Positions 24,312-26,788 of a stretch of DNA of 46,488 bases are shown here, one piece after another (within the stretch, counting starts at the first letter, position 1; each line of letters opens with the position of its first letter). This stretch comes from a bacterium (lineage in GTDB: Bacteria > Hydrothermota > UBA3073 > JACQXS01 > JAQTXJ01), in NCBI GenBank assembly GCA_028688815.1, contig JAQTXJ010000010.1:1-46488 (forward strand). Direction: 5' to 3'. The translations under genes were made by a program, and so were the position numbers. The notes beneath the pieces are model-generated. The model made no database searches, was not told the DNA's origin, and saw only the letters and a program-made list of their open reading frames with translations.

Positions 24312-25973
24312 TTATTTAATTTTCACCAATTTTTTTATTAGTTTATAATCCGCCGATTTGACTTCTACAAAATAAATACCTGCAGGGCAGGTTTTAGGCG
24401 ACCATACTAAACTTTTAGACGATTTATTTAATTTGTCAACTTTATATACAGTCCTACCACTTATATCATAAATCCGTAATTCTGTTTCTTTATCTTTCCC
24501 TTGTTGAGCAGGGCAAAATCCGCCTGAGGCGGAGTAACTGATTACTGTTGACTGAATAAACGGATTCGGATAAGTCTCTATTTTTGATATTTGATTTTTA
24601 ATATTTGATTTTTCTTCTATCCCTATTGTATGAGTAAATTCAATTTCGATTGAATTTAGGATTGGCGTTAAATCAGAAGTTGGGGTAGCGAACTTAACCT
24701 GATACTGGATATATCCTTTATTGTCAAAGCTATACGGTATTGTATCCCCGGAATTATTTATACGAACAGAATCCACGCCATACATATCTTCCGTAGAATT
24801 TGTTCTTATCCAGACTTCCATAGTTCCGGTATTCAAAGATGCATCCCATGTAACGTGTCCGTAATCAACGCTATTCACGGAATCTGCTCTCAACACAGAT
24901 GATTTAAACGAACCTGAAACAAAGTACCCTGCATTTGAAACTCTGCCGTTGCCCACTATTCCGGAATTAGAACCAACATATAAAAAGCCATTTGTAGTTT
25001 GTATTATGGAATATATTGCACTTATTGCAACATCTATTTGTTCGGAAGTCCAACTTGTGCCATTAGCGGATTTATACAAATATCCGCTTAAAGTTCCGGT
25101 TCCTGCATATATTATATTATTATCTCCCTTGAATAAAGAATAAACGGAATTTGCATAAGTCAGTTTTTGTGTTGTATCCCAGCTAACACCTTTGTTACTG
25201 CTTTTGAAAACTTTACCCGAATCAGGACCTGTTCCGGCATAAACAAAAGAATCGCTTATAGCAAGCGAAAAAACAACTCTATCTTTATGCGGGAACATTG
25301 TCGTATCAAAAACAAGCCCATCTGTAGATTTGAATACTCCTGAAATCGTATCTTTTTTAACAACTCTACTACCGCCTGCATAAAGATTATTTTCGGAATC
25401 TTCTACAATTTCCCATATTCGTATTCCATTGTTAACAGTTAGGGCTGTCCACACACTACCATCCGAGGATTTATAAATTTCTCCGTCTCCCGTTCCTGCA
25501 TAGAATGTACCGTTTTTTGCAACAAGCAAAGCATTCACGGGTTTCGTTAAATTTGTAGAACTCCAGCTTGTAGTATATTTTAACAAACCGACATCAGTCC
25601 CTGCGTACAATATGTTATCTTGAATTATCAAACTATGCACCCAATTGCAGGAAGGTATTTCTATATCCGTCCAGTTATTTCCGTAATCCGTAGTTTTAAA
25701 AACAAACCCTTTAAGTGCTGCGCTATCACCACCAGCATAAAGCACACTATCGGATACATCCGTAAGAGCCCATATATTTGTGACGCCTTTAAGTTGTCCC
25801 GTATTTTGCCATCCATCTGGAGCATCAAGTAAAATACTTCCCGGGAGTCTTGAATAATTTATATTTTTTTTATTAAAAAATTTTGTAGTATCCGACCATA
25901 AAAGCTGTCCACTTCCGCCAGACCAATTAGTTTGAGACCACAAATTCAATGCAAGAAAATAAAAAATAATCAT
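24312..25973 (-). CDS. secreted beta-propeller (BNR/YCF48-like) protein with C-terminal sorting domain
   Basis: 553 aa. A short hydrophobic signal region (MIIFYFLALNLWSQ) is followed by about seven units around the pattern 'YSLxxxxxxxLYAGTxxGxVFKSxxxGxxW' (about residues 65-345), typical of a seven-bladed propeller. A beta-sandwich region (about 355-455) follows, then a C-terminal sorting domain (IETYPNPF ... LRIYDISGRTVY ... CPAGIYFVEV ... KKLVKIK). Within that last domain residues about 481-493 (SASGG then FCPAQQGK) are encoded by a palindromic repeat and interrupt the usual spacing. The function is unknown; it is likely a surface or extracellular protein. No good ribosome-binding site is seen. 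An in-frame stop upstream makes the ATG at 25973 the first possible start. Confidence 0.8.
   Translation of the reverse strand: MIIFYFLALNLWSQTNWSGGSGQLLWSDTTKFFNKKNINYSRLPGSILLDAPDGWQNTGQLKGVTNIWALTDVSDSVLYAGGDSAALKGFVFKTTDYGNNWTDIEIPSCNWVHSLIIQDNILYAGTDVGLLKYTTSWSSTNLTKPVNALLVAKNGTFYAGTGDGEIYKSSDGSVWTALTVNNGIRIWEIVEDSENNLYAGGSRVVKKDTISGVFKSTDGLVFDTTMFPHKDRVVFSLAISDSFVYAGTGPDSGKVFKSSNKGVSWDTTQKLTYANSVYSLFKGDNNIIYAGTGTLSGYLYKSANGTSWTSEQIDVAISAIYSIIQTTNGFLYVGSNSGIVGNGRVSNAGYFVSGSFKSSVLRADSVNSVDYGHVTWDASLNTGTMEVWIRTNSTEDMYGVDSVRINNSGDTIPYSFDNKGYIQYQVKFATPTSDLTPILNSIEIEFTHTIGIEEKSNIKNQISKIETYPNPFIQSTVISYSASGGFCPAQQGKDKETELRIYDISGRTVYKVDKLNKSSKSLVWSPKTCPAGIYFVEVKSADYKLIKKLVKIK
24499..24533. repeat. 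palindromic repeat element inserted in frame in a coding sequence
   Basis: Two adjacent hairpins: CCCTTGTTGAGCAGGG (24499-24514, arms CCCT/AGGG) and TCCGCCTGAGGCGGA (24519-24533). The 15-bp second palindrome is identical to that at 30071-30085 between ftsA and murC, and similar to CCGCCTCTGGCGG near 43044-43056. It is translated as part of the sorting domain of the propeller protein. Confidence 0.6.
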
Positions 25974-26008: not shown

Positions 26009-26788
26009 TTACCACCTATATCTTGCAGCCTGGTATATTTCTTTTGAGCTTGCTTGTATAAAGACAACAATGCTGCAGTTACTCGCATTACAACTTGCCC
26101 CAACAGTAAAAGCTCTTGTTTCGTCAAGTGAACCATTTGCCGGTATAGATACCGATTTTCCGGTTGGGTCGGGAAGCATATCCCGCACTACATTATAGAA
26201 AGTACTTCCCGAATAAGAAATATTAGTTTCAACAAGCACAACATACATAGTTCCGGTTATTGCAGCGCCCGTTGTATTCGTAATATGAACTTTAACAGTT
26301 CCGCTTTTCGAAGAAGCGTTGTAAGATGACCCACCGAGTCCGATTTTAAGAGAAATCGGGACAACTTTTCGAGTATTAAAATCGGTTCTATGAACAGTAG
26401 TAGGTGGTCCGACTCTTGGCACAATTCCATCGCATACAGTAGTGGGAGTACTATTCACGGAATAAAGGCTTCCTCTTGCAGTAACAGGGCCCGCAAAAGG
26501 AGCACCGGCATGGAAAGCAAGAACGATCAAGGAATCTTTTGCTTCGTTTTCCAAGGTATACAGCGCACTCGCTGTAGGAGGGCAGCTTGGTCAGCCTGTG
26601 CTAGTAAATTCTTCTATTAACACGGTTCTATAAGAAGCGCCTGTAGTTGTCGTTCCGGATCCATTACCATTGCCACCATTATTAGTGCTATTCAACGGGT
26701 CATACGGGTTATTTCTCGTCCTTTTACACCCTGCGGCACCAAAAACGATAAGTGGAATAAGAATCAAGTAACAGAATTTATTATTCAT
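26009..26788 (-). CDS. Omp28-like thioredoxin-fold lipoprotein, predicted selenoprotein (Sec encoded by in-frame UGA at 26591-26593)
   Basis: 259 aa if UGA codon 66 is read as selenocysteine. Layout: signal peptide with lipobox FGAAGC (lipid-anchored C21), a short NPYDP-containing linker rich in Asn/Gly/Thr (22-50), then an Omp28-type thioredoxin-like domain from about 54. It starts RTVLIEEFTSTG-U-PSCPPTASAL, where relatives read EEFTGxxCxxCP, so Sec66 replaces the first redox cysteine and C69 is the second. PTTVCDG further on matches the cis-proline strand of the fold. A beta-rich C-terminal half follows. The frame is the same on both sides of the UGA, and a SECIS-like hairpin lies directly after it. 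The start at 26788 has GAGGAGG 5-6 nt upstream; a GTG at 26803 is less likely. It overlaps the upstream gene by 8 nt. Likely role: extracytoplasmic thiol/selenol redox chemistry (inferred). Conventional gene callers would split it in two. Confidence 0.85.
26551..26590 (-). promoter_or_regulatory. candidate bacterial SECIS element
   Basis: This 40-nt minus-strand segment begins with the base after the UGA. The lower stem is CCAAG/CUUGG (5 bp), followed by an asymmetric internal loop (9 nt and 3 nt), an upper stem UACAGCG/CGCUGUA (7 bp) and the apical loop AGUG. The loop starts 21 nt after the UGA and contains the G and U expected for SelB recognition in bacterial SECIS elements. The hairpin lies wholly within the coding sequence, as it does in bacteria. 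Confidence 0.8.

Follow-up and report, generated by a model that had tools for sequence, protein, structure and literature searches.

The question raised by this locus is whether a UGA codon within an otherwise open reading frame is read as selenocysteine (Sec), and whether the stem-loop directly behind it is the RNA element for this insertion. In the window, i.e., the whole stretch of 46,488 nucleotides that was analyzed, the frame spans positions 26009-26788 on the minus strand and contains a single in-frame UGA at positions 26591-26593, which a sequence-only reading had linked to a SECIS-like fold. We consider it highly probable (approximately 94%), judging from sequence comparisons, that the hairpin at positions 26559-26576 (minus strand) acts as a bacterial SECIS (bSECIS) for the SelB-dependent insertion of Sec into an envelope lipoprotein. 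The assignment is settled by the comparative evidence and not by the single fold.

An Omp28/HBP35-like gene and the decoding of its UGA

With the UGA translated as Sec (U), the frame encodes 259 residues (MNNKFCYL...EEFTSTG-U-PSC-PP...). The N-terminus comprises a signal peptide and, as judged by eye, an apparent lipobox, followed by YRTVLIEEFTSTG-U-PSCPP; the lipobox makes the product a probable lipoprotein. The protein matches the Pfam family Omp28 (PF11551) with 47.6 bits (E 2.2e-12), above the gathering score of 34.9. An AlphaFold2 model from the single sequence reached a pLDDT of only 51 and was replaced by a model based on an alignment of 51 homologues (pLDDT 93). The latter places a thioredoxin-like part at the N-terminus and a beta domain at the C-terminus, and its closest solved structure is HBP35 of Porphyromonas gingivalis (PDB 5y1a; TM 0.80). 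The product thus appears to be a cell-envelope thioredoxin-like protein, in which a putative UPSC active site replaces CxxC, and homology suggests that it probably serves as an extracytoplasmic thiol/selenol-disulfide oxidoreductase. Upstream of the gene, ftsW-murG-murC-ftsA-ftsZ are followed by a small ORF, while the gene directly downstream (24312-25973) encodes a propeller-like protein that carries a tail for T9SS sorting (PF18962).

UGA otherwise serves as a stop codon: TGA ends 4 of the 33 genes in the window, in which 136 TGG codons and 1 internal TGA were counted. A genome-wide reassignment of UGA to Trp or Gly, with an unrelated hairpin, would likewise leave the frame open, and nothing else speaks for it. 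Given this codon use, the presence of Cys (neither Trp nor Gly) as the aligned residue in homologues, and the genes for tRNA-Sec and SelB in the genome, reassignment is very unlikely and the least probable of the alternatives considered here. The tRNA-Sec, identified by a family search (70 bits), has the anticodon UCA, and SelB is full-length (373 bits; L009:1498-3300, minus strand); both genes and, adjacent to them, the C-terminal part of SelA share one contig of 4.8 kb. A family search of the window's own MAG (G000; 92% complete) found no selD over the cut-off. In the sister species (G138), selD is present, contains an in-frame TGA, and is located beside an Omp28 selenoprotein gene, which is a different copy from the orthologue of the window gene. 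The missing selD in G000 is probably due to an assembly gap.

The hairpin behind the UGA

The 40 nt that follow the UGA (26593-26591) on the minus strand read CCAAG-CUGCCCUCC-UACAGCG-AGUG-CGCUGUA-UAC-CUUGG. They fold into an outer stem of 5 bp (CCAAG, 26586-26590, with CUUGG, 26551-26555), a 9/3 internal loop, and an upper stem of 7 bp formed by UACAGCG (26576-26570; nt 15-21 after the UGA) and CGCUGUA (26565-26559; nt 26-32 after the UGA), which carries the apical tetraloop AGUG (26566-26569) at a spacing of 21 nt from the UGA. Coordinates and pairs are exactly those given in the sequence-only reading, and the RNAfold minimum free energy (MFE) structures of both 40 nt (-12.0 kcal/mol) and 46 nt (-13.1 kcal/mol) correspond to this full fold. 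In longer contexts (61 and 121 nt), the outer stem was lost and the 7-bp upper hairpin alone remained, with -8.7 kcal/mol by itself.

The earlier claim that chance hardly accounts for such a structure goes too far when measured against plain dinucleotide shuffles, which are a weak test for a single hairpin: by these, the fold is only modestly unusual (z-scores between -2.05 and -2.5 in the short contexts), and at 61 nt, z is -0.07. Synonymous recodings, in which the protein was held constant and codons were taken from the usage of the window, seldom produced so stable a hairpin. Among 5000 recodings of the window gene, a hairpin of equal or better stability occurred in 2, an equally low 40-nt MFE in 22, and the same 7 pairs in 14, while all 12 pairs occurred in none. 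An Rfam scan yielded no model matching the window hairpin and nothing relevant.

Comparison of UGA and Cys homologues

Homologues were found in 90 of the 147 genomes of the phylum that were surveyed. The catalytic column was read for 59 distinct UGA genes, from 34 genomes including the sister species, and for 77 Cys genes (together L017-L155); for the tree, one extra homologue with Val in this column was grouped with the Cys forms. The placement of the UGA on a catalytic column, as proposed initially, is borne out, with the U of UxxC aligning to the first Cys of CxxC in the 77 Cys homologues. All 6 Omp28 paralogues of the host genome contain exactly one in-frame TGA each. The UGA of the window gene could alternatively stem from a sequencing error or from a mutation in a pseudogene, or be a genuine stop followed by re-initiation downstream, and a stand-alone ORF beginning with TTG (26009-26554) does exist behind the UGA. 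However, the recurrence of UGA in the same column of 59 genes from 34 genomes, the host's own six paralogues and the sister species among them, together with the conservation of the downstream part up to its end, renders this explanation highly improbable.

The presence of a hairpin separates the two groups of genes. A structure following the bSECIS rules, with the right distance and a G in the loop, and reaching -5 kcal/mol or lower was identified in 55 of 59 UGA genes and in 11 of 77 Cys genes. Compared to synonymous recodings, the hairpin energy had a mean z of -3.18 in UGA genes and +0.04 in Cys genes (Mann-Whitney 2e-19, not corrected for relatedness), and p was 0.05 or lower for 41 of 59 UGA genes but for only 1 of 77 Cys genes. 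These data bear on a further alternative, namely that the hairpin arises as a side effect of the residues conserved behind the active site (C-P-x-[AT]-A-x-x-L), without any function at the RNA level. In line with this alternative, some Cys homologues with similar residues retain a weaker hairpin (the 11 of 77 above; L029 and L030 carry CAGCGCGUGCGCUG). However, the hairpin of UGA genes is lost on recoding although the protein is preserved, whereas recoding is without effect in Cys genes, and pairing has been maintained even though the registers differ among subfamilies. Because the hairpin exceeds what synonymous recodings produce, a coding cause is refuted for the group as a whole, and we regard it as very unlikely. 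The RNA element is thus under selection beyond coding in the UGA genes.

The presence of SelB follows the same division: it was identified in 31 of the 34 genomes with UGA genes compared to 10 of the 39 genomes with Cys genes only (Fisher 1.4e-8), and the 3 UGA genomes in which it was not found are all fragmented MAGs.

What is conserved among the UGA homologues is the upper stem, which mostly has 4-9 bp and opens into its loop 18-24 nt behind the UGA. The dyad center varies by subfamily, with pair sums mainly of 45, 46, 48, and 49, and a few at 40, 41, and 51; the core CAGC/GCUG is present in all 8 genes of register 45. Compensatory changes, which had been suggested as a check, are found within registers, in addition to the shifts between them: pair 21-27 is C-G in 16 and U-A in 5 genes, and pair 18-33 is A-U in 8 and G-C in 5. 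When the partner was slid by 1-3 nt, pairing dropped from 77-100% to 8-67%.

The twelve nested pairs originally regarded as the element are therefore upheld with respect to the 7-bp upper stem, whereas the outer stem, and with it the full set of 12 pairs, is not conserved. Among UGA genes, CCAAG/CUUGG is complete in the window gene (L017) and L023 alone; in other homologues, the corresponding columns form 1.75 (UGA) and 1.68 (Cys) of 5 pairs, so that UGA genes do no better. The outer stem, which folds in stretches of 40-46 nt, is probably dispensable. Furthermore, some copies deviate from the strict bSECIS consensus. L023, the nearest relative of the window gene (from the sister species; 92% protein identity), has only the 4-bp core CAGC/GCUG with a 6-nt loop (CAGUGC; about -3.3 kcal/mol) and fails the strict loop-G rule; the hairpins of the paralogues L022 and L061 comprise 4 bp only, and that of L072 combines 6 bp with a 10-nt loop.

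In a tree that omitted the columns of the active site and the hairpin, at least 10 switches between Sec and Cys were counted, 5 of them on starred branches. A single switch is disfavored, since the tree requires 10 changes. Across independent pairs on this tree, a strong hairpin tracked the UGA in 4.7 of 5 and showed the opposite in 0.0 (averages); with 5 pairs only, this test gave p of about 0.06 and is incapable of reaching 0.05. Three Cys forms (L029, L030, and L043) retain the hairpin-like CAGCGCGUGCGCUG and possibly represent recent switches from Sec to Cys in which the SECIS is decaying.

The two forms differ in the residue preceding the catalytic position as well, which is Trp in 46 of 77 Cys forms compared to 5 of 59 Sec forms (mostly Gly, Thr, or Ala); the WCxxC motif thus appears to be altered in a Sec-linked manner. 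Separately, T9SS-type C-terminal sorting domains were matched by the host's own paralogues L018 (G000:C31), L019, L021, and L022, the four that were scanned in full.

Together with the genes for the Sec machinery in the genome, these comparisons support the SECIS interpretation of the hairpin. By homology to characterized systems, the UGA (26593-26591) would be held in the ribosomal A site, while SelB-GTP-Sec-tRNA(Sec), bound 21 nt downstream to the AGUG apical loop of the 7-bp hairpin, would deliver Sec at the UGA in place of release factor 2. The predicted product would be a lipoprotein of the envelope whose thioredoxin-like domain has a UPSC active site.

Genomic context and relation to known systems

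In 14 of the 40 genomes having both, a gene for an Omp28 protein, in its Sec or Cys form, is found no more than 5 kb from selD (L161-L167). Neighbors in these clusters include FtrB double-selenoprotein-like genes, SaoX/SaoP/SaoA-like ABC transporter genes, as well as corrinoid and methyltransferase genes, most of them below cut-offs. Sao is the selenocysteine-assisted organometal system. With distant Sao relatives among these neighbors, the Sec and Cys Omp28 proteins of the phylum might handle selenium or an organometal at the cell surface, a tentative proposal that we consider rather unlikely.

A gene-caller would truncate six envelope redox proteins of the host genome at a sense UGA, and the same truncation would affect 59 genes among the homologues read. 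Moreover, with its 59 Sec forms, 77 Cys forms, and about ten switches, the family constitutes a compact natural data set on how a SECIS within a coding region is rebuilt in a new register during protein divergence.

Both bSECIS elements as a kind and Omp28-type selenoproteins are already known. An initial reading as a new family of selenoproteins was abandoned after an NCBIfam scan led to NF045500 ('Omp28-related selenoprotein'), which corresponds to the hypothetical protein GOS_C (PMC2398784, 2008) and is listed under that name in a 2026 inventory (Table 1 of PMC13188914). The first report of GOS_C covered 74 Sec and 312 Cys sequences and gave a Trx-like fold and a UxxC motif; SECIS-like elements were ascribed to the new families of that paper (PMC2398784). 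The window family shares the Trx-like fold, the UxxC motif, the Cys homologues, and the SECIS-like hairpin, and all 51 aligned members match NF045500 (best E 1.9e-24). However, the full-length window protein reaches 33.7 bits and the top score among ten proteins scanned is 81.7 bits, compared to a cut-off of 200; the six copies in the host genome and the lipoprotein or T9SS-tailed forms set the family apart as well. By sequence, the window protein is best described as a divergent relative of NF045500 and not as a strict member. A literature search on Omp28 with selenoprotein returned nothing on the window gene.

With HBP35 of P. gingivalis, the window protein shares the two-domain fold and the thioredoxin-like domain (TM 0.80), whereas identity in the structural alignment is 16% and the likeness concerns the fold of a predicted model only.

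For bSECIS elements, the published rules comprise a loop of 3-9 nt with a G within its first two positions, an upper stem of 4-16 bp, a spacing of 16-37 nt, and an MFE of -7.5 kcal/mol or lower (PMC13188914). The window hairpin lies within all of these ranges, with a loop of 4 nt (AGUG, i.e., G at position 2 followed by U), a stem of 7 bp, a spacing of 21 nt, and an MFE of -8.7 for the hairpin and -12.0 for the 40 nt, in agreement with the loop distance and loop G given in the sequence-only reading. Retention in UGA homologues and absence from most Cys homologues is likewise the conservation pattern of a bSECIS. The window hairpin does not differ in kind from known bacterial SECIS elements; its particularities are the genus-local outer stem and the occurrence of several registers within one family.
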